DNA from: a virus
DNA length: 21,099 nucleotides
Reading direction: 5' to 3' (one strand)
IMG/VR virus record: IMGVR_UViG_3300047548_000440
Coordinates: 1 to 21,099 of that record
Shown here: piece after piece, positions 4,625 to 21,099 of the stretch
Layout of the letters: every line of letters starts with the position of its first letter
Position numbering within the stretch: the stretch's first letter is position 1
Position numbers and translations under genes: made by a program
The notes under the pieces: generated by a model
Databases searched by the model: none
What the model saw: only the letters and a program-made list of their open reading frames with translations
What the model was told of the DNA's origin: nothing

Positions 4625-4636
4625 TTGGACCGCTCC

Positions 4637-5215
4637 TTAAACAATAGTTCCGCAGTCTAAATCAAATCGTCCAGGTAGTGTAATAGTTCCAAAGTCCATG
4701 TTCGAAGCAGCGTATATTGCCTGCATTGAATTGTTATACTTTCCGTCAATTTTTCCAAAGTCGTAAGATGTTAAAATATCTGTAACAGGAATTGCGGTTT
4801 TAAAAGAAATAATAGAACCAAATGCAGATACTTCAATATCCTTTCTGCTAGTAACTGACCCATTTGCAGAAGCTCCGCCAAACCCAATGTGTTGATAACT
4901 GCTGGCCAACATTGTACCAGAATCGGTATCAATCCGTATAAAAGCATCTGGCGCTGTATTATTAACAATTACAGTATCACCAGTGTCATCGATTAAAATC
5001 TTTGTACCAGAAATTAAATTTTTAAAAGTTAATTGAGAGCCAGTTTTTTCTTTAAAAAGACTAACTCCTTGTGTGCTTGCAGCACCGACTGATACAGTTA
5101 ATTCGGAATTTAATGCTGAAAAATTAGCATTTACTTTTTGAAACGCAGTACGTAGATCGTCGCCTAATCCATCGTTTACTACATTACCAAGATTGATTGT
5201 GTTAATAGTTGCCAT
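4637..5215 (-). CDS. Short fibre-like structural protein with the shared N-terminal module
   Basis: A protein of 192 residues. Residues 5-38 are the shared module (INLGNVVNDGLGDDLRTAFQ, then KVNANFSALNSEL). Next comes a Gly/Ser/Thr-rich beta segment (SGTKILIDDTGDTVIVNN), and the C-terminus has a repeated 'DFG.I' pattern (SYDFGKIDG at 149, NMDFGTITLPG at 172, DLDCGTIV at the end). The ribosome site is weak (AGAG). A GTAAATA late-promoter box overlaps the stop codon of the upstream 480-residue gene, so this gene may have its own late transcript. It is probably a short fibre subunit or adaptor joined to the same site on the particle as its larger neighbours. Confidence 0.8.
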   Translation of the reverse strand: MATINTINLGNVVNDGLGDDLRTAFQKVNANFSALNSELTVSVGAASTQGVSLFKEKTGSQLTFKNLISGTKILIDDTGDTVIVNNTAPDAFIRIDTDSGTMLASSYQHIGFGGASANGSVTSRKDIEVSAFGSIISFKTAIPVTDILTSYDFGKIDGKYNNSMQAIYAASNMDFGTITLPGRFDLDCGTIV

Positions 5216-5235
5216 TGTCTACGCTCTCTTTATAG

Positions 5236-5242
5236 TATTTAC
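5236..5242 (-). promoter_or_regulatory. Candidate late promoter GTAAATA before the 192-residue gene
   Basis: On the minus strand GTAAATA is followed by CTATAAAG, close to the T4 late-promoter consensus (TATAAATA with a start about six bases downstream). The predicted start near 5230 leaves a 15-base leader with an AGAG ribosome site before ATG 5215. The box overlaps the stop codon of the upstream gene. Boxes of this kind arise often by chance in AT-rich DNA, so this rests on position. Confidence 0.4.
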
Positions 5243-6681
5243 CAAGTAGTTTGAGTCCATTGTACACGCTTCCAAATATCCGCATCATCACCAGTATAGT
5301 CTGTATGGCAATAATAAATGTAATCGCCGTCAAATACCACAGAACCTGCTTCGTCGCCCTCTTTGCCCTTACTACTTGTTGGGCCAAGGCCTTGCGGGAA
5401 CTGTAGATAACCCTGAGCCGTAAAGTACCAAGTCTGACTACTGTTATTATCGTCTGCGGTGATTTGTATGTTACCTACACCTGTTGTAAGTTGAATAGTT
5501 TGGTTGGCGTAAATGTAAGCACTTTGATTAACAGACAGGTTAAATTCATTATTTTCCAATCGTAGATCATTTTGACTCAATGTATCAACTCTAAATGTCA
5601 TGGTCAAAATTGATGTAGGATTTGTAGCTGGCGTCTCTGTTATACCAATTCTTAATTGATACTGGTTGCCTAAGGTATAGGCCTGGCCGTTGCTAGACAA
5701 ATCAATGTAATTAGTGCCGTCAAACACTTCTATTCTATTCTGAGGATACTGTGTAAAACTATAGAACGGAGTAGAAAAAGGATCAGCACTTCTTGTTGGC
5801 GCCATTGGGTCAGTTATAGTAATATCAAGCCATGTATTACCGGACTCGTCTGTACTCCACGTTGCTGTATCGTAATCGGTGCCTTGTTGGAAACTGTAAA
5901 AATTAGTGTTAAACTGATCATTTTGAAGTTTAACTCCTACTTCATCACGTACTCTAACGTGATTTCTTTCTCCTCCCAGGAAAAGTTCTGCAGTTGACGC
6001 ATCTTGCGGCCCACCTGCTCTAATATGAATGTGAGTAGGATATGTTGGATCAATAACAAGATATTGATTAGTGTTATAAAGATTGTTATCTGGTACAAGT
6101 TCTAATGTTGCGTAACCGAGGCTGTCACCGCTAGCAGTTCCCGCACCAATAACTTTAACACCATCAAATGTTACATCGCCTGTATTAGCTGATCCACCGC
6201 CACCTAATAATCCCGTAGTATCTGTTAATTCACTAACATCTGTTGGTGCATTAGGAATATCTGTATAGGTTATATTTTGACTGATAGGAACATTATTAAT
6301 TTTTAATTCGTTAGTTCCTGGATCTAAACTCAGTGGAACACCGCCCAAGTAAACTGTTGAATTACTTACATATAAACTCTTAAATGGTTTATCAGCACTT
6401 CCTAAATTTCCGCCATTGGCTACATTAGGAACAATATCGCCACCTACGGTTAAATTACTACTAATCGTTACTGCCTGATCTATAGTAATTGCCGTGCTAT
6501 CAGTAGTACTCATCGTACTGCCAGAAAATTCAAAAGCACCTAAATTTAAGCCTCCGCTGTTTAATCCTAGTGCTGTATAAAGTTCTGTAAAGTTAGCATT
6601 GACCTTGGTAAATGCGGCTCTAAGACTATCGCCTTTTTTATCGTTAGCTGTAGCGCCTACGTTTATTGTTTGTTTAGTCAT
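5239..6681 (-). CDS. Fibre-like virion structural protein (480 residues) with the shared N-terminal module
   Basis: The N-terminal module (INVGATANDKKGDSLRAAFT, then KVNANFTELYTALG) covers residues 5-39. Residues about 60-130 carry a phage-fibre pattern of 'GNLGSADKPFKSLYVSNSTV' followed by YLGGVPL, seen in many T4-like fibre proteins where a beta-structured shaft repeats. The middle (about 160-420) is Asn/Thr/Ser-rich beta sequence without clear catalytic motifs. The C-terminus (GDEAGSVVFDGDYIYYCHTD, ending DIWKRVQWTQTTW) is a compact aromatic cap. GGAG sits 9 bases before the ATG. It lies between two module-bearing neighbours with gaps of 12 and 23 bases. It is probably a tail-fibre or whisker-like protein. 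Confidence 0.82.
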   Translation of the reverse strand: MTKQTINVGATANDKKGDSLRAAFTKVNANFTELYTALGLNSGGLNLGAFEFSGSTMSTTDSTAITIDQAVTISSNLTVGGDIVPNVANGGNLGSADKPFKSLYVSNSTVYLGGVPLSLDPGTNELKINNVPISQNITYTDIPNAPTDVSELTDTTGLLGGGGSANTGDVTFDGVKVIGAGTASGDSLGYATLELVPDNNLYNTNQYLVIDPTYPTHIHIRAGGPQDASTAELFLGGERNHVRVRDEVGVKLQNDQFNTNFYSFQQGTDYDTATWSTDESGNTWLDITITDPMAPTRSADPFSTPFYSFTQYPQNRIEVFDGTNYIDLSSNGQAYTLGNQYQLRIGITETPATNPTSILTMTFRVDTLSQNDLRLENNEFNLSVNQSAYIYANQTIQLTTGVGNIQITADDNNSSQTWYFTAQGYLQFPQGLGPTSSKGKEGDEAGSVVFDGDYIYYCHTDYTGDDADIWKRVQWTQTTW

Positions 6682-6693
6682 TTATCCGCTCCG

Positions 6694-8178
6694 TTATACC
6701 AATGCCGCTATTCTTGTTTTGAAATTAGCAAAGTCTGTACTTGCTGCAACAATTGATTTTAATTCAGTTAAATTAATGACTCTACTTCCGCCAACGGTTA
6801 ATCGTTGAGTAACAATTAAGTCGTTCTCTACGGTAACGTCGGTATTAAATGTTGTTAATTCTTCAACAACAATACCGCTAGAATCGCTAGTTCCAATTGT
6901 GCTACCAGTTATTGTTAATGAACCTGTTGCAAATGTACCTGCTGTTAATGTGTTTGTACTTGGGTTATATGTTAACGATGTGTCAGTTTTAACATTTTCG
7001 TTACCAGTCGCAGTATCAACAAAAGTAATATAATGTGTTGCATTAGTAGTATTAGTTGCCACTAAAGTCACAGTTGTTGCAATATCAGCAGTTCCAGTTA
7101 AATTACCGGTAACATTACCAATAACTGTTCCAGTAAATGTTCCTTTAACAACTTCTGCAGGAATTTGGCCAGCATCGGCATCAACTAACACAGTTGAATC
7201 TTTTCCTAATACAGAACCATAAATGTCAATAGTTTGATTAACAGCGATAGTTAATGTATCGGTTCCTGGATCGTTAGTTAATAAAATCCCATACCCTGCG
7301 TCAATATTAAATGTGTCAGCAGTACTATCTGAAGTAATATCATTTCCTACCGAATCTCCAACAATATGGAATCTTGTAAATGCTGTCTGCGGAGCAACAC
7401 CAGAACTAAATGATACCGTTGATACTCCAGATGCTGCATCAGTTGAAACCAGTATACCAAAACCTGCTTGCACATCTAATATACCAGTATTAGTAACTTT
7501 GACATTATCGCCACTGGTGTTGTCAATATTAATACCTGCACCAGCAATTCGACCACTTGGTAATGATGTAGTGCTTTGTAAACTTCTAACACCTGTATTG
7601 GTAATAGTTGCAATTCCGTTGACAGTTGTATGTGATATACCGTTTCCGTCAGCAACGCTTAAAATACCGGTGTTGTCAATAGTAATGCTTTCTGCACTCG
7701 AGTCTACACTAAGTTGTATACCGTTTCCAGATATAAAATTTAAAGTATCGGAAAATTCGTTAGCAATAACACTTTCAGCATTGTCAATTTGCGCTGCTTT
7801 AAAGAAAGTTTTATCTGGGTCGATAATTAAATTTCCGTCAACTGTTGAACCTGCAGGCAATTCAACAGTTAGTCCGATACCTTTAATTTGAGCACTACCT
7901 GCCCATAGGCCGTTTAATTCTGATCCTGCAACAGAACTCCACTCGGCAGTATAAACAGATTTCCACTGATGTGTTGCGTCACCTAAACTATACGCATTTG
8001 ATGTAGCCGGGCTAACACTTGTGTCTAATGTTTCAAAATTAATAGGAGTTAAACCTGAACCCCCGCCAACTGTTGCTGCTAAAATGTCAAAATTTTCGTT
8101 GACTTGTTTAAACGCTTCGTAGACATCACTCCATAGTAACGGTGGTGCGCCTGGGGTGATATTTGTATTGAATGCCAT
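6694..8178 (-). CDS. Fibre-like virion structural protein (494 residues) with a divergent shared N-terminal module
   Basis: Residues 4-42 are a divergent copy of the shared module: NITPGAPPLLWSDVYEAFKQ then VNENFDILAATVGG, keeping the 'AF.QVN.NF..L' half but lacking the 'ND..GD' half. Residues about 140-280 hold degenerate repeats built on 'D(N)TGILSV..G.GI....T.DG.ATI(TN)TG', typical of a trimeric beta-shaft fibre. The segment near 350-370 (GTFTGTVIGNVTGNLTGTAD) is a classic T4-like fibre repeat. The C-terminus has VTVENDLIVTQRLTVGGSRV and then a short helix (TELKSIVAASTDFANFKTRI). GGGAG lies 10 bases before the ATG, and only two bases separate it from the giant fibre gene upstream. No enzymatic motif is seen. 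Confidence 0.83.
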   Translation of the reverse strand: MAFNTNITPGAPPLLWSDVYEAFKQVNENFDILAATVGGGSGLTPINFETLDTSVSPATSNAYSLGDATHQWKSVYTAEWSSVAGSELNGLWAGSAQIKGIGLTVELPAGSTVDGNLIIDPDKTFFKAAQIDNAESVIANEFSDTLNFISGNGIQLSVDSSAESITIDNTGILSVADGNGISHTTVNGIATITNTGVRSLQSTTSLPSGRIAGAGINIDNTSGDNVKVTNTGILDVQAGFGILVSTDAASGVSTVSFSSGVAPQTAFTRFHIVGDSVGNDITSDSTADTFNIDAGYGILLTNDPGTDTLTIAVNQTIDIYGSVLGKDSTVLVDADAGQIPAEVVKGTFTGTVIGNVTGNLTGTADIATTVTLVATNTTNATHYITFVDTATGNENVKTDTSLTYNPSTNTLTAGTFATGSLTITGSTIGTSDSSGIVVEELTTFNTDVTVENDLIVTQRLTVGGSRVINLTELKSIVAASTDFANFKTRIAALV

Positions 8179-8180
8179 TA

Positions 8181-11100
8181 TTATGTTCTCCCTACTGCAA
8201 TTTCAATTGTACCGATGTGATCTGATTCGTAACTTTCTAGTGCCTTACCAACTACAGTACCAACTTTGGCATCGCCGTTTGCAGCAACAGCTACTCCGTG
8301 AATTCCTGCTGTAATTAGAATATCACCTTTTTTAATTTTTCCAACAACCTTACATGGAACACGGCCTTGTAGTGCTACCAAGTTCTTTAATCCTGGGCAA
8401 GCGCCGTACATTGTATAAGCAGCATTATCGGAAACAACGCCCGCTACTCGAGTATCTCCTCGAACATTGGATGTTGTAACTTCCTTATCACCACCAAATA
8501 CAAGAACTGTACCAACTTCGTATTCTTTGTCGCCTTCGTAGTATTCTGCTAAGTCGGCGGAATAAGTTGCTTGTAATCGAGAACCAGTGTCTAATTGCCA
8601 ATACCCTCTAATCGTTCCGTTAGCGGTTGTGCCTCCAGATGTTAAAGTAGTTGCTTGAATCTCTGCGGCTCTAATAGAACCTAGAGACAATCCAGATTGA
8701 TTTCTAAACTGGTGTAGGTCATTGTCATAATATGTAACTTTATCAGTTGCAAGACTACCAGATTGAACGATAATTCCTCCAGCACCGCTGTGACCATAGT
8801 ATCTAATGTATCCACCTGTTGCAGTGGTGTCACTGTCGATTGCTGTATTATTATCAATCTTAAGTTGACTTAGGTCAACAGTTCTAGCACCAAAGTCACC
8901 GTTAGCGTCTCTTATAACAAGTTTACTTGCTTCTGGGTTGGCAGCTGAACCTGCACCTGCTTCAACAATAGTGTAGTCTGCATCTGATGTAAAGCTACCA
9001 GATGTTATTCTTCTTAAGAAACCAGTTGATGAATATTGGCTCTTCTTAATAGCAGCACCAGCGTTAACAATAGTTGAGAATGGAACTGCTGTTACGTTTC
9101 CTGTGGTAATATTACTATTACCTAGTAATGTTTCACCAGGGATTTGATTAATTTTAGATAGCGTTAATCCGTTGTCCTTAATAGTAACAAATCCATCTGT
9201 AACCGTAAACTGAACAGTATCAAAACTAGATAATCCGCTTCGAGCTTGTTTGTCTCGTCTTGTTCCTGTAGGCGCTGCTGTTTCGGCAGTAGCAAATGTC
9301 ATTAACAGTTTGCTTTGTGCAATATCAGCATCTGACTTAACATCAACGTTGATAATTGTATCTGGTACAATTTGAACATCAACTTGATTAACAGTACTAT
9401 CAATTCCTTGACGTAATTCAAATGTAACATCACCAATCACTGTAGCATTTACAGAATCGTTGTTAGATCCAGTAAAGACTAAAATATCAGCAGCATCAGT
9501 ATTGTTTGGTGTAAAGTCTTGGAAGTTGTCCCATGTTAAGCTTCTTAGGTTAATAGCGTCTTGCGGATCAGTTGCATCTGCAATTCGAAGGATCTTATGG
9601 CTATCAAGGTCCATGTCGGCTTTCATAGCCAATTGACCGTCTAGCGGCATGTAACCACCAGTGACTGTTGGAATTAATTGTTCAACTGGAACCTTTGCAC
9701 CAGCATGTGTTAATCCTAATCTACGTTCAATATAGATTCTTGTTGCGTTTTCTGTTGGAACTGTATCAGTTGCGTTATCAGTAAATCCAGAGTCTGTTGA
9801 GAATTCACTAACTGGAACACCTCGCTTGAAACCAATACCATCTAAGTTACTTAACGCAATTGAACTTGAGAACGTAACAGTACCAGTACCTTGGTCAACC
9901 TTAAAGTAAGGACCAACCTTGAAGTTACCGTATTGGTCTGTAGTTACATAGAAACAGCGTCCAACGTCTCTTTCGTCTGTTTCTGTATCTTCGTTAAGAG
10001 CATTTACAGACTGACCATAAATTTCTTTTGGATAGTTTGTGTCAGCATACGAACCAGTACCAATTTCTAGTAAGTCATGAGATGTAACACGAGTCAACGC
10101 AATACGAATTGTTAGTGTACCTAAAGATCCGCTTGTTCGTTTTGCTACACCAGATTTAATAGTATATGCAGATGCATAGGAAATCAAACTATCTTCTAGT
10201 GGTCTGTCTAATGTAACTCTAGCAAATGCTTCGTTAGTAACAGTTTCTGGAGCATATGTAGAAATAATATATTCTTCGCCTTTGAATACAAATTTACTTC
10301 CACCTACTCGACCAATGTCTCCTGGACCGATTGGGGTAACAGCGAATGTAGTATCACCTGCTCGACCAGTTACAAGGCCTACTGTTTGAACTCCGCTTTG
10401 CGAGCCTGAAGTATCTGCTGCTGTTCCTTCTGGTTCTAAACTTACCCGGAAAGATGTGCCCGCAACTAGACCTGTGCTTAATACATGATAGTTTACTAAC
10501 TTACTAATTCCGGTAGGTAAGTTACCAGTTGTTTCAAACTTAACAACATCACCTGCTGAGAATGTATGTCCAGGTAAAGTAATTACTGCTGGAGACCCAA
10601 TGCTAATTGTACAAGGGCTTCCGGAAGTTACAAATTCACCAGGTTGCCATAATGTTAATTCAACATAGTTATAGTTTTCTCTCAAGTTAGTTCTTGTTAA
10701 CCCAACTAGAGATAATGTAAATGATCCAGACCCAGACGTTGTAGTATTAAGTGCAGTACCATATCTTTGTAGAGATATAGTAAATTCTGTTTCTGTTAAA
10801 TTAGTTGAAGAAACATAGTAGGTTTCTCCTGCAAGCATTGGATTTGGCAAGGATCCAGAGGAACTAAACGATAGAGTATAATTCTCTAATAATCTATGAG
10901 TTCTTGCACCTTGAATAGAAAGACCGGTTCCGTTTGTTAACGTAGCAGATGCTCCGCCAGGCGCTGTTGAAAGTTTGAATTGATTGTATTGAGGAACATC
11001 TATAACATAATAAGTTGTTCCCTCAACAAGACCATTTGCTGTTGAAGTTGGTATAAATTTATCACCAAGCAATAATTTGTGAGGTTTAGAAGTTGTACAA

Positions 11101-14100
11101 ACATCTGTGTCGATGTCTGTAATTGTTTCTAAAATCTTGAATATTGCCGGTGATCCGCTAGTAATAGCAATACTATATGGCCCTTGTACATCATTATAAG
11201 ATGTAAATTGTAAAACTCGATATACAAAGTTTGGATCTTCGCGAAGTTTTAAACCTGTTGATGGTCGAACGGCAACGTCTTCCAACCCCCCGGTTAAAAT
11301 AACCTGTCCGTTAGCACGTAAGGTCATCTTAGTATCAGCCGGAACTTGATCAAATAACCCGTCAAGTTCTGCAGATGATGCTCCAGTCGAAAGGTTTAAT
11401 CTTGCTACACCTAATGGAAGATCAGTAGTTGTTACAGAAACAACAGGATATCTATAAATGATTCCGTCGTGATCAATTTCAAGTTCCGAACTTCCTAACG
11501 GTGTATAGTCGTATTTGTATACGTAAATGAACAGTCCGTCTTTGGTATTAGCATATGCTGGACTTGGATAATAACAAACAACACGTTGACTTAGATCTTC
11601 ATATAGTGTTGTTGGTGTTGGAACTTCTAATGGATCAGCACCTTCAGCAACAAGAGCGTATACCCCATGAGAACTAGATCCACCAACGGAACGTATTTGT
11701 CCACCTGTTACTGAATAATAAGAAATCCAGCAATAATATGTAAACACAGAAACAAGTTCTAACAAACCGCCGTTCATTGCAATAGCACCATACCCCATAT
11801 CGTTGATTTGTGTATAGTCGTTTGCAAGCATTGAACGGTTGCCTGGCATTAACAATTCAAATTGATTACCAGTTTCGTCAACGTAATTAATAACGCCAGT
11901 TTGAATTGATGCTTTTGCTGCAATAATATCTGCCCTTGCTGCTTTAGAAGTTGCATTGTAAGCATAAGCACTTAGATTTGGTAGGACTTCTGTAGGAGCT
12001 GCTCCAACGCCACCTGTAATTACTGCGGAAATGCTGTCCATTAACGTGTCGATAATTCCTGCTTCGACGCCGGTTGCAGCAGTTCCTGTAGTTCTTGATA
12101 AGGTCGAATATGCAGTAGCAGGTGCTAAGTTTTGTACAACTTGTTTTGCTAGATAGTTTGCATAGTCAATTGCTGCTGCACATCTAGCAGGCTGACCAGA
12201 AGCTAGCATTGATACACTAGTTGACATGCCGTTCCAGTATTTTAATGCAGCTCTTCTAGTAGCACTATTACCACCGTAAATTAAATCGTAGATAACTGCT
12301 TCAATAACGTACAGAGTATCTCTTTCTGACTTTGCTTCGTTATAAGTATCACCAGTTGCCCACGGGCTAATGTTTCCTGCAATTTGTGCCTTGATCCAAC
12401 CTTGTGTTTCGGCAACAATATAATTTCTATTAGATAACAATAGGTTATACGCACTTGTAATATCTGTCGATACTCCTGGTGGTAATGTATATGTTAATGT
12501 TGGTGCTGCTGCAACACCTCGATCAATAATGTCAGTAATAGTTGCTGCACTTAAATCAACAGTTGTTTGTATTGTAGTGTATGTTGGAATTGAGTTATTA
12601 ACTAATTCGTGAGCATAGTTAATAGCATTAATTGTAATTTGGCGTTGATCTTCTAATACTACTGATGCATTCGATAAACGATAAGTTAGACCAGAAATTC
12701 TAGTATTATAGTTTGTTCCTAAAACAAGGTCATATCCTAATCCGTCAACAATGTATCCAACGTCTCTTGAACAAATTGCTGAGTTATATGTAAAGACATC
12801 ATATGGCCAAGGAGTAGTTTCGTCTAATATAAATGTTGCAGATGATCCGTTCTTGTTGTAAACAAAATCTCGAATATAGTTAACTCGATAAACAGTATCA
12901 AAAACAATAAACGAACATGGTAGTTCTGGGAATCGATCAAGGCCTGTAACTGAAAGTCTTGTTGACGCTCCTGGGTTATTAACCGCGGTTATTGTAAACT
13001 GAAGGTTACCTGCAAATCCGTCAACAAACATACCACCGGCAAACACTTGGCGGTCTTTACTTCTTGAAAATGAAGCACACTCTTGGAAGTATGGAGATCT
13101 AGAAAGAATCTGTCCTTCTGGATCAAGAACACCCATAAAGCCACCGTGGCCAATGGCACTAATAGCTTGCCAACGAACTGCATCATTAGCAAGGAATACG
13201 TCCATCTCTTGGTTTTCTTTTGGATAGTTAACGCTACCAGAGCCGTCCATTACATCTTCTAATGCTGCCATTAAATCATTAATTACAGTATTTGAACCTA
13301 CTTCTGCTTGATATGCAGGATCAATAATTTGGCTGTATAATGTTTGACGAACCGGAGTTACTACAGTATTTGAAATAGAACTGATCATTAATGATTTCAG
13401 TTTTGCCAATACTGCTCGATATTGGGTTAATTGAGTTGTAATAGCAACTCTAGCACTATCGCTTTCATAGTATTTTAAACCAGCAGATATTGTTCGGTTG
13501 TATCCACCCCATTTAAGGTCAAATACTAATGAATCAATAATTAATCCAACGTCTCTTTTACATAAATTTTGTTTGTATTCAAATCCAGCAAATGGAGAAA
13601 TTCCGTTGGTAATGTTGTAATTCATCCATGCAATAATTTCTTCTTGCATGAAACTTCTGTTTAGTTCTAGTAATGAGGCTGCAGAAGTAAATGCCCCTTT
13701 GTTATCAATCTTAGGATAAACTGGTTCGTCTGCATTTTGCAAATAGTGATAACCAAATTCTTTAGTAGCCTCAGTTACAGTTAATCCGTCGATTACTAAA
13801 TCTCTACGGAATTTTTGGAAAGACCAAGGAGAACTTGATGTTCCTGGTTTTGGTCTAAAAATAACTCTACGGAATTCGTCACCTACAATAGAACAGTTTT
13901 GCGGAAGTTTTAATGGATAGTTTTCGTAATATTCACCAGATTCTACAAGAATACTAATTTGAATATTTTTAGAAACATCACCGTAGGAAATTGTTTCGCC
14001 AACTTTGAACGCTCCGTATTTGATATCAACATCAAATAGTTCGTTACCAAAGCTGTCTAATTCCCCAGAGTGTCCTAGAATTTGCGCCAATGCTCCTGTT

Positions 14101-15644
14101 TCTTCGCCTCGCAAATATAAACCTTCTCTTATATCACGACCTCTAATTGATTCTGGAGTATTAGTCGTAACATCACCGGTAAAGTCTGTACGATATCCTG
14201 CTGTGTAAATTGCAAACCTTGGTAGATTAACTTCTAGTGTTGGTAATGCTGTGAATCCAGTACCTTTGTCTGTAATAGTAATACTAGAAACAGCGCCGCC
14301 AGAAACTACAGCAGTACCAAATGCACCAGATCCTGTTGTGTCTCCTACGGCAGGAGTAATACGAACAGATACTAAACTGTATCCGCTTCCGCCGTTAGTT
14401 ATTGATACTGAGTTTACTTTATATGTAACATTAAATGATGCATTTTGTCCTATTGCACCAACTCCTGCCGGAGCGGCCGAAGTTAAAATAGTTGTGGCAA
14501 CATTTGTTGCACCAGGCAATGCACGGTAAGAACCAGTTGAAATAATTCTGTAGGTCGAAATAGCTCCCGGAGTAGTTAATGTTGTTAATACTTCGATCGT
14601 ACATTTTCCGCCACCAGTTGATACCGTGCCGCCGCTTAATTCTAAAATATCACCAGGATAATAGTTAATACCGATATCGTTAATAGTAACGGTATCAACA
14701 CTCATGTTGACAACACCTACAAACCCACTTCCAGATATTGGAGAAGCATACGGTGTTGATGCAAGGTAACATTGACTTGCACCGTTGTTATATGTTAATA
14801 CCTTTTTATATGGTCCAATTTCTTCACGTGCTTCTAAAACTAATTCTTCAGCACGTTTTAATGCTGCTTCTAGGGTACGATAAGCATATGCAAGAGCGCG
14901 GCCTTGTAAGGCTTTTGACACTCCTGGACGATCATCTTGACCAGACATTGCAACGTACAAGTTGGCGATAGATCCAAAAGCTGCATTATCAACATAACGT
15001 TTAGTGGCAGCAATCAACCCTCCATATAATTCATCGTCGTCTGGTTCTGGATCTCTTGATAAAATTAAAGGACCGCCCATACGTCCCATTGATGCATTTA
15101 CTCTACCAGTTTCTGGATCGATGCTGTTAACACCCGCTAAAGAAACTTTAGTATCAGCGTATGCTTTACTGATTGCCTCGTTAGCATTTTTCGGATTTTT
15201 GTCAGCATTATTAAGGTCAGTTAAATCTAATGGAGGAAGGTCTAAAATTCTATATTGGTTACCACCAGATCTTGCAGAAAGATCTCCACCTAGTTGTGGA
15301 TTTGCGTCTGCTGAAATTGCTGCAAACTTAGCATTGATAGTAATTTCGTTAGGGTTTGTATCAAAGTCAATACTAATACCATTACCAGATCTAAGTTGTT
15401 TAAATGTTAATCCGGACTCGGTATTGTTAATAGTTACAATAGGAGTATTTCCGGTTGCAGGGTCGTTTTGCCCAACATATGTGCTAGGAGTGTCATCTAA
15501 CCCGATAAAGGTTAATTTGTCTCCTAAACCTAATGAGCTATATAATTCGCGGAAGTTATCGTTAACTTTACGGAACGAATCACGTATACTATCACCAGTA
15601 CCATCATTTCCAATAGTACCAATATCAATAATCTTTCTTGCCAT
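8181..15644 (-). CDS. Giant tail-fibre-like structural protein (2487 residues)
   Basis: This is the largest gene in the window. Residues 3-40 are the fullest copy of the shared module (IDIGTIGNDGTGDSIRDSFR, then KVNDNFRELYSSLG). A helical segment follows near 215-270. Then come glycine-rich 'ITNGGSGYS'/'ITDKGTGFT' repeats (about 315-460) and a beta-helix-like part (about 560-620). Three degenerate helical repeats with a 'C.RDVG.I.D.L..DL..G' core start near 695, 958 and 1105. Three 'GD.v.F...G.L..G....Y.V' beta repeats lie near 1520-1750. The last 125 residues (from ADLAEYYEGDKEYEVGTVLV, about 2360, to IEIAVGRT) resemble the conserved C-terminal domain of cyanophage long fibres and the Peptidase_G2/intramolecular-chaperone type. 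AGGA lies 9 bases before the ATG, and a CTAAATA box lies further upstream. It is probably a long tail fibre or side fibre for host recognition; cleavage of its end is possible but unproven. Confidence 0.87.
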   Translation of the reverse strand: MARKIIDIGTIGNDGTGDSIRDSFRKVNDNFRELYSSLGLGDKLTFIGLDDTPSTYVGQNDPATGNTPIVTINNTESGLTFKQLRSGNGISIDFDTNPNEITINAKFAAISADANPQLGGDLSARSGGNQYRILDLPPLDLTDLNNADKNPKNANEAISKAYADTKVSLAGVNSIDPETGRVNASMGRMGGPLILSRDPEPDDDELYGGLIAATKRYVDNAAFGSIANLYVAMSGQDDRPGVSKALQGRALAYAYRTLEAALKRAEELVLEAREEIGPYKKVLTYNNGASQCYLASTPYASPISGSGFVGVVNMSVDTVTINDIGINYYPGDILELSGGTVSTGGGKCTIEVLTTLTTPGAISTYRIISTGSYRALPGATNVATTILTSAAPAGVGAIGQNASFNVTYKVNSVSITNGGSGYSLVSVRITPAVGDTTGSGAFGTAVVSGGAVSSITITDKGTGFTALPTLEVNLPRFAIYTAGYRTDFTGDVTTNTPESIRGRDIREGLYLRGEETGALAQILGHSGELDSFGNELFDVDIKYGAFKVGETISYGDVSKNIQISILVESGEYYENYPLKLPQNCSIVGDEFRRVIFRPKPGTSSSPWSFQKFRRDLVIDGLTVTEATKEFGYHYLQNADEPVYPKIDNKGAFTSAASLLELNRSFMQEEIIAWMNYNITNGISPFAGFEYKQNLCKRDVGLIIDSLVFDLKWGGYNRTISAGLKYYESDSARVAITTQLTQYRAVLAKLKSLMISSISNTVVTPVRQTLYSQIIDPAYQAEVGSNTVINDLMAALEDVMDGSGSVNYPKENQEMDVFLANDAVRWQAISAIGHGGFMGVLDPEGQILSRSPYFQECASFSRSKDRQVFAGGMFVDGFAGNLQFTITAVNNPGASTRLSVTGLDRFPELPCSFIVFDTVYRVNYIRDFVYNKNGSSATFILDETTPWPYDVFTYNSAICSRDVGYIVDGLGYDLVLGTNYNTRISGLTYRLSNASVVLEDQRQITINAINYAHELVNNSIPTYTTIQTTVDLSAATITDIIDRGVAAAPTLTYTLPPGVSTDITSAYNLLLSNRNYIVAETQGWIKAQIAGNISPWATGDTYNEAKSERDTLYVIEAVIYDLIYGGNSATRRAALKYWNGMSTSVSMLASGQPARCAAAIDYANYLAKQVVQNLAPATAYSTLSRTTGTAATGVEAGIIDTLMDSISAVITGGVGAAPTEVLPNLSAYAYNATSKAARADIIAAKASIQTGVINYVDETGNQFELLMPGNRSMLANDYTQINDMGYGAIAMNGGLLELVSVFTYYCWISYYSVTGGQIRSVGGSSSHGVYALVAEGADPLEVPTPTTLYEDLSQRVVCYYPSPAYANTKDGLFIYVYKYDYTPLGSSELEIDHDGIIYRYPVVSVTTTDLPLGVARLNLSTGASSAELDGLFDQVPADTKMTLRANGQVILTGGLEDVAVRPSTGLKLREDPNFVYRVLQFTSYNDVQGPYSIAITSGSPAIFKILETITDIDTDVCTTSKPHKLLLGDKFIPTSTANGLVEGTTYYVIDVPQYNQFKLSTAPGGASATLTNGTGLSIQGARTHRLLENYTLSFSSSGSLPNPMLAGETYYVSSTNLTETEFTISLQRYGTALNTTTSGSGSFTLSLVGLTRTNLRENYNYVELTLWQPGEFVTSGSPCTISIGSPAVITLPGHTFSAGDVVKFETTGNLPTGISKLVNYHVLSTGLVAGTSFRVSLEPEGTAADTSGSQSGVQTVGLVTGRAGDTTFAVTPIGPGDIGRVGGSKFVFKGEEYIISTYAPETVTNEAFARVTLDRPLEDSLISYASAYTIKSGVAKRTSGSLGTLTIRIALTRVTSHDLLEIGTGSYADTNYPKEIYGQSVNALNEDTETDERDVGRCFYVTTDQYGNFKVGPYFKVDQGTGTVTFSSSIALSNLDGIGFKRGVPVSEFSTDSGFTDNATDTVPTENATRIYIERRLGLTHAGAKVPVEQLIPTVTGGYMPLDGQLAMKADMDLDSHKILRIADATDPQDAINLRSLTWDNFQDFTPNNTDAADILVFTGSNNDSVNATVIGDVTFELRQGIDSTVNQVDVQIVPDTIINVDVKSDADIAQSKLLMTFATAETAAPTGTRRDKQARSGLSSFDTVQFTVTDGFVTIKDNGLTLSKINQIPGETLLGNSNITTGNVTAVPFSTIVNAGAAIKKSQYSSTGFLRRITSGSFTSDADYTIVEAGAGSAANPEASKLVIRDANGDFGARTVDLSQLKIDNNTAIDSDTTATGGYIRYYGHSGAGGIIVQSGSLATDKVTYYDNDLHQFRNQSGLSLGSIRAAEIQATTLTSGGTTANGTIRGYWQLDTGSRLQATYSADLAEYYEGDKEYEVGTVLVFGGDKEVTTSNVRGDTRVAGVVSDNAAYTMYGACPGLKNLVALQGRVPCKVVGKIKKGDILITAGIHGVAVAANGDAKVGTVVGKALESYESDHIGTIEIAVGRT

Positions 15645-16379: not shown

Positions 16380-16667
16380 ATGTTCGGATTTATTAAAAAA
16401 CTATTTGGTAGCAAACCAGCAGAGGAAACTGCGGTAGCTCCATATAAAATTGAAACCCCAGTTGTTAAAACTGAAGTAGCAAAAGAAGTTGAAGTAGCAC
16501 CTGCAAAGGTTAAACTACGTCAGCCGGGCTCACCAAAACAAGGTGCTAAAAAGCCTGCACAAGGCAAAAAACCACAAGGGCAGAAGAAACCATCTCAGCC
16601 TAAACAAAGTGGACAAAAGCCAAAAGGACGCAAGCCTAAGGCTAAGCCAGCAGCACCTCAACAGTAA
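16380..16667 (+). CDS. Basic, lysine/proline/glutamine-rich low-complexity protein
   Basis: A protein of 95 residues. A short amphipathic start (MFGFIKKLFGSK, 1-12) is followed by a mixed-charge linker (13-45) and a strongly basic, probably disordered tail (46-95) built from K, P, Q, G and A (for example KKPAQGKKPQGQKKPSQPKQ). It has no cysteines and no catalytic motif. The perfect AGGAGG ribosome site and a late-promoter-like box suggest strong late expression. The histone-H1-like tail suggests DNA or membrane-surface binding, perhaps a DNA-packaged or internal head protein; I do not recognise the family. Its 3' end overlaps convergent uvsE by 10 bases, and a terminator hairpin follows about 25 bases on. 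Confidence 0.72.
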   Translation: MFGFIKKLFGSKPAEETAVAPYKIETPVVKTEVAKEVEVAPAKVKLRQPGSPKQGAKKPAQGKKPQGQKKPSQPKQSGQKPKGRKPKAKPAAPQQ

Positions 16668-17686
16668 TTTAACTGTTTAGCTTGTTCAAAAAGCCTAGCA
16701 CTAGCTAGGTTTTTTGCTTTCGACTCGCACATTATGTCGAACTGATCTAAGAAACTTAGAGCCCATTCGTTAACAGCCGTATTCCAATAAAAGTCGGAAT
16801 GTGCTCTAAGTTTGGATTTTTTATAACCGGATTCTAACAACAGGTTATAGTCAGGTGCGGTAATTGTATCGTGTCCGACAAGTATATCTTCGCGACTAAT
16901 TGAATAGTGACAAGTAGGACGAACCCCGCGCCAACTATCAATGACCCTCTGCACTCTGGCATCTTCTGCCATAATGTACTGACCTTCGCGAACCCAATGA
17001 TGATGGATATCGAGCACAATAGGTACAATATCGCTAATAGCCAAACAATCATCAAGTCCATGACTCATTTCCTCGTTTTCAATTGTGATACAATTACGGG
17101 CCTCAGGTGACAGCCTTTTGTAGGCCTGGCGTATACCTTCACCACCACATCGTCCGGCGATGTGAACGTTGACCTTGAAATCTTGGAAGCTCCTCGCGAA
17201 CCCCATCCAGCGTACCATATCGACATGATATTCAAACTCCTCTATTGATCTATTAACTATATCCGGGTTATCAGATGCCAAAACGCAAAACTGGCCAGGA
17301 TGCATACTAAGCCGAACATTATTCTTGCGAGCCAAATCGCCCACTTCGGCAAATCTTCTTTCGCAAGCGTCTCTAACGTCGGGATGCCGCCAAAACCCGC
17401 TCCAATCAGCGTGAGTGTATACAGGAAGTATATCACTACTGAGTCGTACCATTCTACGATTTTCTTCAAGTGTTCCTACCTTTTCGACTAATTTGCGAGT
17501 CGATTCTATATTTTGTTCTAATAAGTCCCACAGTTTTTGCTCAGCAACATCACGAGTTTGTCGATTAAGCCAAGCAACAGTAGTGGAACCAGTGTTGTAG
17601 ATTTTTGCAGGATCGTTAGGTTTAATACCATCTACCTGTCCAGGATGGTCGATCCACTTGCAAGCAAAGCCAATACGTTTAGTCAT
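16658..17686 (-). CDS. uvsE: UV damage endonuclease UvsE/UVDE
   Basis: A protein of 342 residues with a TIM-barrel UVDE fold. The family starts its excision repair by nicking DNA 5' to UV photoproducts. The metal- and DNA-binding residues known from Thermus UVDE all have counterparts: H92 (YTHADW), H129 (SMHPGQF), H175 (VNVHIAGR), E203 (TIENEE), D226 and H229 (LDIHHHW), H260 (TCHYSIS), H296 (RAHSDFYW) and E321 (MCESKAK). The N-terminus MTKRIGFACKW fits the family start, so the ATG at 17686 is correct. No Shine-Dalgarno site is seen. Instead a consensus TTGACA-17-TATAAT promoter predicts transcription starting at the ATG itself. The 3' end overlaps the convergent basic gene by 10 bases and contains a terminator-like hairpin. 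The role is probably repair of phage DNA in sunlit water. Confidence 0.95.
   Translation of the reverse strand: MTKRIGFACKWIDHPGQVDGIKPNDPAKIYNTGSTTVAWLNRQTRDVAEQKLWDLLEQNIESTRKLVEKVGTLEENRRMVRLSSDILPVYTHADWSGFWRHPDVRDACERRFAEVGDLARKNNVRLSMHPGQFCVLASDNPDIVNRSIEEFEYHVDMVRWMGFARSFQDFKVNVHIAGRCGGEGIRQAYKRLSPEARNCITIENEEMSHGLDDCLAISDIVPIVLDIHHHWVREGQYIMAEDARVQRVIDSWRGVRPTCHYSISREDILVGHDTITAPDYNLLLESGYKKSKLRAHSDFYWNTAVNEWALSFLDQFDIMCESKAKNLASARLFEQAKQLNYC
16688..16715 (+). terminator. Rho-independent terminator inside the 3' end of uvsE
   Basis: An A-run and a G, then the stem CCTAGC (16694-16699), loop ACTA, stem GCTAGG (16704-16709) and six T (16710-16715). It lies 21-48 bases after the stop codon of the plus-strand basic gene and should end that transcript. 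Read on the minus strand it is also hairpin-plus-U-run shaped (CUUUUUG), inside codons of about residues 324-333 of uvsE. Confidence 0.75.
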
Positions 17687-17692
17687 AATGCT

Positions 17693-17721
17693 ATTATAGC
17701 ACCATCACTTCCAGTTGTCAA
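17693..17721 (-). promoter_or_regulatory. Consensus sigma-70 promoter (TTGACA-N17-TATAAT) for uvsE
   Basis: On the minus strand, TTGACA (17716-17721) and TATAAT (17693-17698) are exact consensus hexamers with the ideal 17-base spacer. The expected start is about 17686, the A of the uvsE ATG. The -35 lies just upstream of the uvsE start and just inside the 3'-flanking side of the glycosyltransferase gene. A host-sigma promoter suggests early expression. A 5-base inverted repeat (TGCTA...TAGCA, 17689-17701) straddles the -10 box. Confidence 0.7.
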
Positions 17722-18499
17722 CTACAAATTTATCATGAACGTCTTGAGGTTTTGGATCGCCATGGAATACAGTAACACAACAATCTGGATGCACTTCTAC
17801 GGTGTGATCTACTTCTCTAAATTGTCGTTTACCGTTAATTACTACTAATTGTTCACGACTGCGAATTTCCCACTTATAACTTTGAATCCATTCTTTAGGC
17901 CAAAATTGAATTCGATCTTTAGCTAGTTTCCAAATCCAATCTTGATCACCTTGTAATCTTTGTGCATCTCGAGGATTGGTTTTAAATTGTTCCCAAATAA
18001 AGTTTTGAGTACCATGATTCCATGACATAACGCTGCTGTTTAAATACTTCCAGTGTGCATGAAATTTTCTATTGAAATCGTGTATTCCTAAAAATGCATT
18101 AGGATATGCCGTAGCTAACTTGTCTATATTGTTGTGTATAACAACATCAAGATCAAAATACAATATTCTTCCTGCTAAAGGCAATGTAGGATCAAACATG
18201 TGTACTTTATGCCACCAACCTTTTTGGTATTGTGCATTTGGTTGCACAATTGATCTTACTCCGTCAATAGGATGTTGATCGTCGGTTAAACAAACAAACT
18301 CATAGGGAATGGTTAGATTTCTACTAACCATATTTCGTAATCTTTCTACATATTCGCGAGAGTATCTATTTCCAAAACGAACACATAAAATTGTGACTTT
18401 ATGCTCTCCGGAAGAAATACTAGCTAATGCTTTAGAATTTTCTTTTGCAGCTTTAGCTTCTCGCTTTAGCTGTTTACGTTCTTCTTTTGACAATTCCAT
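17705..18499 (-). CDS. GT-A-type glycosyltransferase
   Basis: A protein of 264 residues. After a charged helical start (1-30) comes a Rossmann-like strand VTILCVRFG (35-43), then YEFVCLTDD (66-74) and [17 protein letters not shown] (112-128), with the DXD metal and nucleotide-sugar motif at D116/D118. Further motifs are GDQDW (184-188) and a late VFHGDPKP (244-251). This order is that of GT-A transferases related to family GT8. Donor and acceptor cannot be read from sequence. The start overlaps the end of kdsA by 26 bases, so the two are probably co-expressed and may act on the same glycan. The ATG at 18499 has no clear ribosome site, so coupling to kdsA translation is likely. There is no membrane segment, so it should be cytoplasmic. 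Confidence 0.85.
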
Positions 18500-19304
18500 C
18501 GATAGCCACTAAATCTTCTAAAATGTTTTTAAGGTTGTCTAACTTAATCATGTTAGGACCATCACTCGGAGCACAGTCTGGATTTTCGTGTGTTTCCATA
18601 AACACACCTGCTACGCAGCCTGTGGCTACAGCGGCCCTCGCCAAGTAGGGGACCATTTCACGGTCTCCACCAGAGATTTGTCCCAACCCTCCAGGCTGCT
18701 GTACAGAATGTGTAGCATCAAAGATAACGGGATAACCAGTGCTTGCCATAATAGGAAGGCTGCGCATATCAACAACAAGATTGTTGTACCCATGTGTATA
18801 ACCCCTTTCACATAACATAATTCGAGTATTTGCTGTTGAAGCAATCTTTGCTGCAACATTTTTCATATCGTGCGGTGCTAAGAATTGACCTTTCTTAACG
18901 TTAATGGTGCAACCGGTATGACCTGCCGCCAATAATAAATCAGTTTGTCGACATAGAAAAGCTGGAATTTGAATAACATCCACACCAGCATCAGCTACTA
19001 ATTCTGCTTGATACGACTCGTGAATGTCTGTTAAGATTGGAATACCAAAAAGGTGTTTAATAGAATTAAGGACTTTGAGACCTTCGTCAATTCCGATTCC
19101 TCTTTGTGTACTAATACTTGAACGGTTAGCTTTGTCAAAGCTACTTTTATAAACAAGTCCGATGCCAAGCTCGTCGCAGATTTCTTTAATGCGTCCAGCA
19201 GTTTGCTCGGCATGTTCTTGACTTTCAATTTGACAAGGGCCAGCAATTAAGAAAAATCTATTCTTATTGCTGACCTCAATATGATTAATATTAAATGTGC
19301 GCAT
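18474..19304 (-). CDS. kdsA: 3-deoxy-8-phosphooctulonate (Kdo-8-P) synthase
   Basis: A full-length protein of 276 residues. It condenses phosphoenolpyruvate with arabinose-5-phosphate to Kdo-8-phosphate, the committed step to Kdo of lipopolysaccharide and some capsules. Visible motifs are IAGPCQIES (20-28), [11 protein letters not shown] (53-63), [12 protein letters not shown] (113-124), [10 protein letters not shown] (135-144), [13 protein letters not shown] (174-186), [12 protein letters not shown] (195-206) and METHENPD (236-243). C24, H199, E237 and D248 match the four metal ligands of the Aquifex enzyme, so this is a metal-dependent (class II) KdsA. All active-site segments appear intact. 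Upstream, TATAAATA lies 5 bases before the ATG and there is no Shine-Dalgarno site. It is followed by an overlapping glycosyltransferase gene. Kdo-8-P synthase rather than the related DAHP synthase is supported by KANRSS and the overall length. Confidence 0.96.
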
Positions 19305-19322: not shown

Positions 19323-19874
19323 TTATCTGTCCATGTAATAAACTGAACGAGATTTAGGAGTTTCCCACCATTCAATGCTTTGAACACGAACACCTAACTT
19401 GCGCATTTTAACTTCTACAAGTTCTGCCATCCAAGCACTTAGTTTTTCACTAGTCGGGACAAAATCTACAATTAGAAAGCCTTCAAGGTACTCGTATTCA
19501 GGAGTATTAGGTGTAATGTCGTCTAGTTTGATCTTCCACCCAGCAATGACGTTAGTGTCAGTTACATGCACTGGATACAGCACACGATCTTTACCAATCA
19601 TTTGATTGTACAAGGGATCCTTACGATCAAGAATGAACTGATGATCGATATGTTCGTTGATCCATTTTTTCAGCCATTCTAAGTGCCTAAAGTCAGTAAC
19701 CATTCCGGTGTTATCGAGTCCATCGCCCGTTAAGTGTACCTGCATCTTACCTTCGTGTCCGTGTAAGTGCCTGCAAGCACATTTTAAATCGGCAGCATAT
19801 TCGCCGTTTAGTGTCTGTGTATGAACTCTGTGCCCGTAGCAAAACTCGAAGGTCTTATCAATTATCCAAGTCAT
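19323..19874 (-). CDS. queD: 6-pyruvoyl-tetrahydropterin synthase / QueD family protein
   Basis: A protein of 183 residues from ATG 19874, chosen because AAGGA lies 7 bases upstream; a GTG at 19898 in the same frame would add 8 residues but has no ribosome site. Zinc ligands are H15 (CYGHRV), H38 and H40 (HLHGHEG). The catalytic cysteine is C34 with C-X3-H-X-H spacing as in QueD. The D77-H78 pair (HIDHQF) and E171 (WWETPKS) complete the active site. The family acts on dihydroneopterin triphosphate. QueD makes carboxy-tetrahydropterin for queuosine and 7-deazaguanine, and related phages use such genes for deazaguanine DNA or tRNA modification; no queC, queE or folE is in this window. An insert of about 50 residues (roughly 85-135) sits between the IDHQF and VPTSEKL segments. 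Two promoter candidates lie upstream. Confidence 0.88.
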   Translation of the reverse strand: MTWIIDKTFEFCYGHRVHTQTLNGEYAADLKCACRHLHGHEGKMQVHLTGDGLDNTGMVTDFRHLEWLKKWINEHIDHQFILDRKDPLYNQMIGKDRVLYPVHVTDTNVIAGWKIKLDDITPNTPEYEYLEGFLIVDFVPTSEKLSAWMAELVEVKMRKLGVRVQSIEWWETPKSRSVYYMDR

Positions 19875-19904
19875 CTTGTGTTCCTTATAAGATGACACGC
19901 AGAG

Positions 19905-19942: not shown

Positions 19943-19971
19943 ATTATACAGAGAACGTATTTATGAATCAA
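19943..19971 (-). promoter_or_regulatory. Candidate sigma-70 promoter (TTGATT-N17-TATAAT) for queD/kdsA
   Basis: On the minus strand TTGATT (19966-19971) and TATAAT (19943-19948) with a 17-base spacer, at the very end of the upstream gene. A CATAAATA late-type box (19958-19965) overlaps the spacer. This would give early expression of queD and, by read-through, kdsA and the following genes. Confidence 0.45.
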
Positions 19972-20590
19972 CAGTTAGTTGCTCAATATTTCTAAATTCA
20001 ACATTTTCGAGCAACCAGCTATCTGGAAGTTTCCAATCTGCATTGTTGATTATAGTAAATTTTTTATCGGTAAAATGCCTAAACACTTTTCCAATCTGGT
20101 ATATCCAGAATGAATAATCTACTGCGGGCGATTCAACCTTGCTATAGTTTTGTGTTCCTTTGTAAACATTGTTTACACTATTTGTTGACGAATATAAATC
20201 AAACCCCAATAGATAAATGCATTTAGATTTAGAATGAGCTGCCAACAAAACAGCATAACACCCGCTGCCCCAATGTTCTGGTTGATCCTTTTTCAATTCG
20301 CCCCTAAAAGGTAATTCAGGAAGTTGTTGAATGTTTTTATTTTTTAAAACTTTACGAAAATGTCGATACCATTCTTCGCGAACATATATTAATGTATTAT
20401 TTGTATATGGGTTTCTTACAGCCTCGTCAGCCATTCGCCTATCACAGCAGACAAGATAATCGGTTGTAAAATCTCTATGCAGAGCATTACAACCGACTGT
20501 TATATAATTTTTAAATAAATTTAAATCAACATCTTTTCGACTTTCGCCATTGCCGACAACAAGAATATTATTCGATTCTTCCAAAGCCAT
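19961..20590 (-). CDS. Putative glycan enzyme, GT42 sialyltransferase/DUF115-like
   Basis: A protein of 209 residues from ATG 20590 (MALEESNNILVVGNGESRKD). An upstream in-frame ATG at 20620 would add 10 residues but overlap the fibre gene by 53 bases. The opening strand ILVVGNGESRKDVDL (9-23) followed by YITVGCNALHRDF (29-41) and, later, WGSGCYAVLLAAHSKSKCIY (107-126) then LLGFDLYSS (127-135) follows the motif order of CST-type sialyltransferases (GNGPSL ... RCN ... TSGVY...A...IYL.GIDFY) and of the DUF115/Maf glycan family. The N-terminal half is thus a Rossmann-like nucleotide-sugar-binding fold. The donor cannot be decided; CMP-linked sugars would fit GT42. It overlaps the fibre gene upstream by 23 bases. 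No membrane segment is seen. Confidence 0.72.
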   Translation of the reverse strand: MALEESNNILVVGNGESRKDVDLNLFKNYITVGCNALHRDFTTDYLVCCDRRMADEAVRNPYTNNTLIYVREEWYRHFRKVLKNKNIQQLPELPFRGELKKDQPEHWGSGCYAVLLAAHSKSKCIYLLGFDLYSSTNSVNNVYKGTQNYSKVESPAVDYSFWIYQIGKVFRHFTDKKFTIINNADWKLPDSWLLENVEFRNIEQLTVDS

Positions 20591-21099
20591 TCCACAATCC
20601 AGGGTTTCCGGCTTTAACACATACCCAGCCTACAAATAATCCTGGTTGAGGATTAGTATTCCACATTATATCGCCTTCGGTATACGTTCCGCCTTGTGGT
20701 GGTTCTGTTCCGCTTAGGTGTATTTTGTCATTAAATTTAATAGGACCATTAACATGTAAGTTTGTTCTTGGGTCAATACTGTTTACATTAACGCCTAAAG
20801 ATCCTACAACAGAAACTTTAACTGGGCCAAAACTATGATTGCCAAGGGTTATATCGCCGTTTGCCCCAACTGTAAGTCTTGATGTATTGTCAGTTACAAG
20901 TTCTAGATCTGCTGAATTAAATGTACCGATGCTACCAACATTAGGCTCACTAGCACCTAACACTAATTCGATATTCATATCAACTATACTAAGGGGAGCC
21001 TTTGGTTGATCAGTACCAATGCCTAATCGATCTGTATTAGCATCATAGAATAGATATTGATTAATGCTACAGCTACCGTCAACAACTAGTCCTTTTAAA
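20568..21099 (-). CDS. Fibre-like virion structural protein, C-terminal part (runs off right edge)
   Basis: The open frame continues without a stop from the right edge to 20570, giving 176 residues; the internal ATG at 20978 is not the true start because coding continues upstream (SINQYLFYDANTDRLGIGTD). The sequence has the fibre-shaft pattern 'D..TDRLGIGTD.P.APLSI' and its partner 'GVNVNSIDPRTNLHVNGPIK', common in phage tail fibres, and ends in GDIMWNTNPQPGLFVGWVCV followed by KAGNPGLWNGFGRIE, a C-terminal cap common to T4-like cyanophage structural proteins. It is probably the distal end of another fibre or baseplate-linked protein. The glycan-type gene begins inside its last codons. Its N-terminus, and whether it carries the shared module, are outside the window. 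Confidence 0.85.
   Translation of the reverse strand, partial: LKGLVVDGSCSINQYLFYDANTDRLGIGTDQPKAPLSIVDMNIELVLGASEPNVGSIGTFNSADLELVTDNTSRLTVGANGDITLGNHSFGPVKVSVVGSLGVNVNSIDPRTNLHVNGPIKFNDKIHLSGTEPPQGGTYTEGDIMWNTNPQPGLFVGWVCVKAGNPGLWNGFGRIE

Follow-up and report, generated by a model that had tools for sequence, protein, structure and literature searches.

A probable Cst/Maf-fold glycosyltransferase encoded behind a tail fibre gene in a conserved phage gene cassette

The viral DNA IMGVR_UViG_3300047548_000440 (the window analysed here, which is the whole record of 21,099 bases) encodes on its minus strand a short protein (19961-20590) whose gene overlaps a fibre gene, and this raises the question of whether the protein transfers a sugar and, if so, which sugar and onto what. 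The initial annotation had described it as GT42-like, possibly a new phage glycosyltransferase family, that might glycosylate the fibre or a host surface sugar. The translation comprised 209 amino acids and contained the described motifs exactly, namely GNGES (residues 13-17), GCN (33-35), GSG.Y (108-112) and IYLLGFDLY (125-133). The overlap of 23 nt was also exact, the fibre frame stopping at 20568 and the ATG of the putative transferase lying at 20590.

All genes of the neighbourhood were on the minus strand. Toward lower coordinates, the C-terminal part of a tail-fibre-type gene (20568..21098; PHROG_21471 and PHROG_2617), which runs off the record end, was followed by the gene for the 209-residue protein, a PTPS/QueD-like protein with a Cys-x3-HGH motif (19323..19898), KdsA, the 3-deoxy-8-phosphooctulonate (Kdo-8-P) synthase (18474..19304), a glycosyltransferase of predicted GT8 fold (17705..18499), a UvdE-like endonuclease (16658..17686), a HesB/IscA-type (Fe-S_biosyn) protein (16315-15995) and a fibre of 2,487 aa (15644-8181). 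The UvdE-like endonuclease was a constant neighbour of the cassette and probably has no role in the sugar function. Just upstream of uvdE, at 17721-17693 (-), a perfect sigma-70 promoter consensus (12/12) with TG before the second hexamer was found; the total number of promoter-like sites in the window was below the shuffled mean, and the T4 late-promoter consensus occurred once, against 2.7 occurrences expected by chance. Several fibre-type genes within 4637-15644 (-) had similar N-terminal segments (..NDG.GD..R.AF.KVN.NF..L..), which suggests paralogues with a common attachment domain. A 157-aa frame at 873-1346 (-) had as top Pfam match PF07733, the DNA polymerase III alpha NTPase domain (E 3e-11, 77 positions), a short piece that is odd for a T4-like phage. 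The GroES/Cpn10-like protein encoded at 239-631 (-) (E 1.7e-6) is, we assume, perhaps the counterpart of T4 gp31.

The 209-codon frame is not a chance frame, because 16 IMG/VR loci were 55-60% identical to it over the best segment, a profile scan found at least 580 relatives among the 600 stretches listed, and 25 residues were invariant in 62 aligned members. Of the 68 distinct locus proteins, 61 entered the alignment, together with the window protein; L003, L028, L035, L056, L071 and L092 were thinned out, and L020 was excluded since its frame stops after 89 aa. The invariant residues included G13 N14 G15 E16 S17 R18, G33 C34 N35, D50, S109 G110, G129 D131, N140 N141, Y149 and W162, and the W.SG and G.DL motifs were invariant as well. 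Among public phages, matches were found in three records of two Pelagibacter phages (HTVC008M in two records; Mosig) at 34-35% identity. In HTVC008M two family paralogues are present, gp002 and gp007 (L018:752-1309 and 4180-4983), both annotated as hypothetical and located close to a Nol-like carbamoyltransferase and 2OG-Fe(II) oxygenases.

The window protein matched the PHROG_30607 profile with an E value of 4.5e-31, identifying it as a member of that family. To speak of a new family was therefore too strong: the protein already has a place in PHROG_30607, and the label alpha-2,3-sialyltransferase has already been given to a related phage family, PHROG_4603, to which P1 PmgO belongs. When bacterial and archaeal genomes were scanned with a sequence pattern, a method that picks up fairly close relatives only, five loci were found, all on MAG contigs, and the one inspected (L106) carried the same phage cassette. 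Within the reach of that scan the family therefore appears to be a phage family, and its members look like they come mostly from one group of aquatic T4-like phages.

Gene order was analyzed in 91 loci, of which 83 had at least 3,500 nt downstream (8 have less) and 86 had 600 nt upstream; the resulting counts are not independent, as the loci are mostly from one phage group and some are near-identical (e.g. L008-L013). The PTPS-type gene, the GT8-type gene and uvdE followed downstream in that order in 83 of 83 loci. The PTPS-type gene was always found within 1,500 nt of the transferase gene (83/83), usually directly next to it and in a few loci up to about 740 nt away. It was more constant than kdsA, which lay between the PTPS and GT8 genes in 59 loci and was absent in 24 of the 83. 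Upstream, a fibre match ended no more than 100 nt from the transferase gene in 78 of 86 loci, and no such match was found within 100 nt in the other eight. The fibre stop lay within -8 to +4 nt of the transferase start in 74 of 91 loci (11 undetermined), most commonly with a one-base overlap (37 loci), and the overlap of 23 nt in the window was longer than in nearly all other loci. The adjacency to a fibre gene first seen in the window is thus conserved across its relatives. The records of HTVC008M and Mosig have no annotated fibre gene alongside the relative.

An AlphaFold2 model built from ten sequences had a pLDDT of 81.6 and a pTM of 0.84. Values below 50 were confined to residues 134-140 and 144-152, a loop with the conserved VNN.YK.T..Y motif; Cst-II has a loop that becomes ordered upon donor binding. 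The top fold match was Maf (5mu5; Z 12.8, rmsd 3.0, 167 aligned residues), followed by Cst-I (Z 11.3, rmsd 3.7, 187 aligned), Cst-II (Z 11.0, rmsd 3.5, 180 aligned), the archaeal HPPK/MptE enzyme MjHPPK (8sd5; Z 10.6), Corynebacterium SteA (Z 10.2), a Pasteurella sialyltransferase (Z 9.8), mammalian GT29 (Z 8.8) and thiamin pyrophosphokinase (Z 8.7). Structural matches in BFVD included viral DUF115, MptE-like and GT29 proteins. A Foldseek search by itself found nothing in the PDB at E ≤ 0.001, the nearest entry being Maf at 4.1e-3. The fold comparison with Cst-II and Maf, which the initial annotation had suggested, matched both and MptE too. The model has the Cst fold expected of GT42 and that of the Maf catalytic domain, but the Cst match was not exclusive: Cst, MptE and SteA were tied within about 1 Z unit and only Maf stood clear of them. 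The predicted fold is common to glycosyltransferases and pyrophosphokinases, and since MptE is not a glycosyltransferase, fold alone cannot name the reaction.

The similarity to CST-type and DUF115 proteins noted at the outset was real but weak. The window protein scored 16.8 bits to PF06002 (CST-I), against a gathering score of 25, and E 1.3e-4 to PHROG_4603. At E ≤ 1, PF01973 matched 18 of the 62 members (best 3.7e-5) and PF06002 matched 16 (best 6.1e-5), so that the two appear tied across members by profile matching. The window protein itself was not among the PF01973 matches at E ≤ 1, and three members scored in whole records reached 15.5-19.3 bits, below the PF01973 gathering score of 34.6 bits. 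No NCBIfam match was obtained for the window protein at E ≤ 0.01, and it reached none of the curated Pfam or NCBIfam cut-offs.

Profiles were required for matches in the PDB, as phmmer with the single window protein found nothing up to E 10. With the 62-member profile, all nine chains matched up to E 10 were CST-type sialyltransferases (E 0.0016-0.039) representing three enzymes: seven were Cst-II variants, one was Cst-I and one the Pasteurella enzyme. Maf and MptE were not among them; with a smaller profile, 9 of 10 chains were CST-type. By hhalign, the probability was 94.6 against a GT42 alignment, over 33 columns only, at the first motif, 67.5 against one bacterial CST-I-type protein alone, and a weak 59.4 against 18 Maf domains, over the second motif. 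The GT42 alignment was limited to two sequences because CST-I matches were found in just 2 of 299 genomes (the phylum of an Oceanospirillaceae MAG), one of them over the cut-off. This sole match over the cut-off was a long open frame with a CST-I domain (L114; E 1.9e-20), and tblastn of this bacterial protein against phages gave no match. A search for archaeal MptE sequences in 148 genomes yielded two matches, both under the cut-off.

Residue by residue the picture was mixed. Cys-Asn at 34-35, present in 62 of 62 members, resembles the 'RCN' of Cst-II, and D50 in the second segment, likewise present in all 62, would fit either a Cst-type enzyme or MptE. The catalytic His of Cst-II, which we take to be His188, has no conserved counterpart, since no His was conserved in the C-terminal half across the 62 members. 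In a weak alignment, the GHS of Cst-II fell on residues 158-160, where position 159 was P in 43 members, Y in 14, F in 3, H in 1 and A in 1. Position 158 was Asp in 61 of 62 members, and by the same weak alignment Asp158 adjoins the place of the catalytic His. The initial description as GT42-like was right in kind and is backed by fold and PDB sequence matches, but not by the PF06002 cut-off or the catalytic His. On the best reading the glycosyltransferase is placed outside GT42 proper: it cannot be counted as an established member of GT42, nor as a phage family that is new altogether.

The model of the GT8-like neighbour (pLDDT 87.5) matched glycogenin with Z 17.7 and LgtC with Z 17.3 over about 200 residues. 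Its DxD (D116 and D118) and GDQD motifs were invariant in 26 chosen alignment rows (stretch L083 was left out). With 16.4 bits it stayed below the Pfam GT8 cut-off of 24.3, and the predicted fold is the GT-A/GT8 fold with DxD. Because of the fold match to glycogenin and LgtC and the invariant DxD and GDQD, the neighbour is very probably a glycosyltransferase. It belongs to PHROG_1962, the family that also includes P1 PmgQ. Just upstream of pmgQ, P1 encodes two GT42-like proteins, PmgO, the member of PHROG_4603 mentioned above, and PmgP (PHROG_2111), which also matched PHROG_4603 weakly (E 1.8e-5).

Relatives of the GT8 protein were present in 36 public phage records, and in 31 of these a GT42-like gene was located within 5 kb. 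The P1-type gene block accounted for 22 of the pairs, its records being near-duplicates. The other nine were from phiNP, XacN1, CM1, RAS14, three Tetraselmis virus records, DSL-LC06 (weak profile scores of E 0.005-0.01, plus annotation) and C48C1 (weak profile scores only, 4e-4 to 7e-4). No GT42-like gene was found within 5 kb in Mosig, Chlobot, Chuche, EBPR siphovirus 3 and S.Kent 1-2-1. In Mosig it lay about 15.6 kb from the best of the GT8 places, two further places not being located; in the other four none was found in the scanned stretches, some of which ended at the record end. Pairing by chance is unlikely because only 71 of 50,697 records matched PmgO, an informal estimate that includes the near-duplicate P1-type records. 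A PmgO homologue lacking an annotated gene was also noted in Citrobacter phage phiNP at about 23737-24282 (L104:3834-4475), just before phiNP_031. In the small lake phage DSL-LC06 (L173), one cluster combines genes annotated as KpsC-type protein and as alpha-2,3/8-sialyltransferase with a heptosyltransferase gene and two further glycosyltransferase genes; KpsC uses CMP-Kdo.

Since the fold is common to pyrophosphokinases, the protein might be an MptE-like 6-hydroxymethyl-dihydropterin pyrophosphokinase that serves a pterin or folate pathway alongside a phage FolE and the PTPS encoded next to it. PTPS enzymes act on pterins, and FolE carries out the first step of that route. The fold match to 8sd5, tied with Cst-I and Cst-II, the PF01973 matches in 18 members, the PTPS-type gene downstream in every locus, and FolE, which was present in 7 of 27 records (among them five of the six largest), are consistent with this. 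The same 27 records, picked mostly by length from the 91 loci, were searched for QueC with regard to a full preQ0 route: nine matched at E ≤ 0.001 and eight passed the 22-bit cut-off. At 14-28 bits, most of these matches extended over no more than 50-70 of the 210 positions, one over about 100, and several fell in one record; short and weak as they are, they cannot be called QueC with confidence.

Against the pterin enzyme, MptE was absent from the PDB sequence matches, which were all CST-type with the 62-member profile. The 'ADGA' of MjHPPK, located before its SDL segment, was replaced by G-C-N in 62 of 62 members. Furthermore, the PTPS motif CxxxHG[HY] was of the Cys form in 87 of 91 loci and of the Glu form, which we take to be PTPS-III, in none, four loci not being scored. 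The P1 and phiNP relatives pair with a glycosyltransferase and have no PTPS-type gene annotated beside them, among neighbours many of which are of unknown function. We consider an MptE-like function, the main rival reading, rather unlikely. Divergent PTPS types (four by best-matching query) occupied the slot after the transferase gene in L001, L025, L041 and L054, as if the gene in this slot had been repeatedly exchanged among related phages.

A catalytically dead protein of Cst/Maf fold, with a structural or assembly role, is a very unlikely explanation. It would suit the conserved coupling to a virion gene, the naming of the P1 relatives as morphogenetic, and the annotation of the PAJU2 and Eowyn relatives as structural protein (one record each). 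The 25 invariant residues, many of them in motifs common to Cst and MptE enzymes, and the recurrence of an enzyme partner argue for an active protein.

The clue to the sugar comes from KdsA. The KdsA of the window scored 416 bits to NF003543 (cut-off 242) and 387.1 bits to TIGR01362 (cut-off 314), identifying it as a member of both families. The KDO8P_synth cut-off was exceeded in 40 of 50 related records, whereas matches to the window KdsA at E ≤ 1e-5 were present in only 14 of 50,697 public phage records. Four of 50 partial records contained a PF02348 cytidylyltransferase gene, on the same strand as the transferase gene and 4.6-6.5 kb upstream of it (both sets of 50 were picked mostly by length from the 91 loci). 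The best matches of the one PF02348 gene tested were all KdsB models, whose cut-offs it did not reach (175.6 bits to NF003952, cut-off 193; 97.4 bits to TIGR00466, cut-off 155.2). The co-occurrence with CMP-sugar genes, for which the initial annotation had proposed to look, was thus observed, frequently for KdsA and rarely for a PF02348 cytidylyltransferase. Cyanophage S-SCSM2R has KdsA and KdsB, and the two hypothetical proteins beside its KdsB contained neither the GNG motif nor a useful Pfam match.

Two groups of KdsA occupied the same slot, 66-90% and 43-47% identical to the window KdsA. Two separate kdsA acquisitions were considered and rejected, as the tree, made with 78 of 91 rows after pieces shorter than 200 aa, with stops or identical were dropped, gave no sign of them and a single phage clade was not rejected (p-AU 0.52). 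On the transferase tree as drawn, the presence of kdsA required six changes; the well-supported branches force only two for the kdsA-less group.

A true sialyltransferase moving Neu5Ac from CMP-Neu5Ac, like Cst-II, would agree with the nearest PDB sequences, those of Cst-II, Cst-I and the Pasteurella enzyme. However, the cassette contains KdsA, a Kdo-8-P synthase at equivalog level, and the one upstream CMP-sugar synthetase tested was closest to KdsB models. To our knowledge, E. coli K-12, in which P1 grows, makes no CMP-Neu5Ac, and the P1 relatives would find none there. Transfer of sialic acid is accordingly regarded as highly improbable. Modification of phage DNA or nucleotides instead of glycans, a function brought to mind by the neighbours of HTVC008M gp002 and gp007, which include replication genes besides the carbamoyltransferase and oxygenases, is just as improbable, since in the group of the window the gene stands in conserved coupling with a fibre gene and usually has kdsA nearby.

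Beyond the observed gene, its conservation, the gene order, the identity of KdsA and the predicted folds of the protein and its partner, we infer glycosyltransferase activity. Our main reading, with a probability of roughly 0.7, is that the 209-residue protein is a Cst/Maf-fold glycosyltransferase that uses a CMP-activated acidic sugar, together with a GT8 partner and often a phage KdsA. It would probably be translated together with the tail fibre and have as its partner the GT8-fold transferase, whose gene follows two or three places further downstream. Kdo-8-phosphate would come, in most members, from the phage's own KdsA. From this context the sugar is likely Kdo rather than sialic acid. 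CMP-Kdo as the donor is put forward tentatively, because the cassette makes its precursor and Gram-negative hosts generally make CMP-Kdo, unlike CMP-Neu5Ac.

Two acceptors are conceivable, and we hold each of them with equal reserve. The fibre encoded just upstream may be the acceptor in view of the fibre coupling and of the precedent of Maf, Aeromonas Maf1 being proposed, in a passage of PMC3426422, to place CMP-activated pseudaminic acid on flagellin. A host surface glycan may be the acceptor in view of Kdo being an LPS sugar and of the 'lock out' idea cited in a passage of PMC5332604. The most specific reading, which in all its parts together is unlikely, would have a Kdo transferase using Asp158 near the usual place of the catalytic His and, with its GT8 partner, building a Kdo-containing glycan onto its own fibre, with the Kdo supplied by the phage's KdsA, aided in some phages by a KdsB-like enzyme; PmgO, PmgP and PmgQ would then offer a laboratory example of the two-transferase scheme. 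If the main reading is right, Kdo is made, or its supply boosted, by a conserved module in a large group of T4-like phages from aquatic habitats, and two transferases encoded next to the fibre attach it. A bacterial LPS core sugar would thereby be linked to modification of the virion or of the host surface during infection, and a function would be suggested for the unexplained P1 genes pmgO, pmgP and pmgQ.

The newer part of these results is mainly the conserved cassette of fibre, Cst/Maf-fold transferase, PTPS, KdsA and GT8 transferase, and our literature search found no paper describing it. The genes kdsA and kdsB themselves have already been recorded in viruses as auxiliary metabolic genes. 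A passage of PMC10653327 names both among the glycan genes of viruses in surface sea water, and one of PMC5332604 reports KdsA and NeuA among six LPS/capsule enzymes in a marine genome with T4-like structural genes. Unlike the cassette described here, these passages do not present kdsA in a fixed position between PTPS and GT8 genes behind a fibre-coupled Cst/Maf-fold protein.

The archaeal HPPK/MptE enzyme has the same fold and differs in its ADGA segment, in the want of a PDB sequence match and in the Cys-type PTPS neighbour found in the window. Maf 5mu5 is the best fold match with a weak sequence profile match, and its chain of 666 aa with extra domains contrasts with the single short chain of 209 aa. 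Cst-I and Cst-II resemble the window protein in fold and in the motifs GNG.S, CN, SG.Y and G.D.Y, the last of which is followed by a loop modelled with low confidence; the window protein is shorter, lies under the Pfam cut-off and does not conserve the catalytic His. P1 PmgO has a similar length, the motif order GSGPS / N / NSG / GYD and a PHROG_1962 transferase nearby, but it is very distant in sequence (hhalign probability 32), and neither kdsA nor a fibre gene is annotated within 3 kb of the P1 pmg region. In a passage of PMC10695390, pmgO, pmgP and pmgQ were scored as non-essential for lytic growth of P1. HTVC008M gp007 and Mosig_00142, which belong to PHROG_30607 by profile, are longer (267-281 aa), contain an insert and have neither fibre nor kdsA annotated alongside, but they share GNGESR, GCN and VNN.YK.T..Y with the protein of the window.
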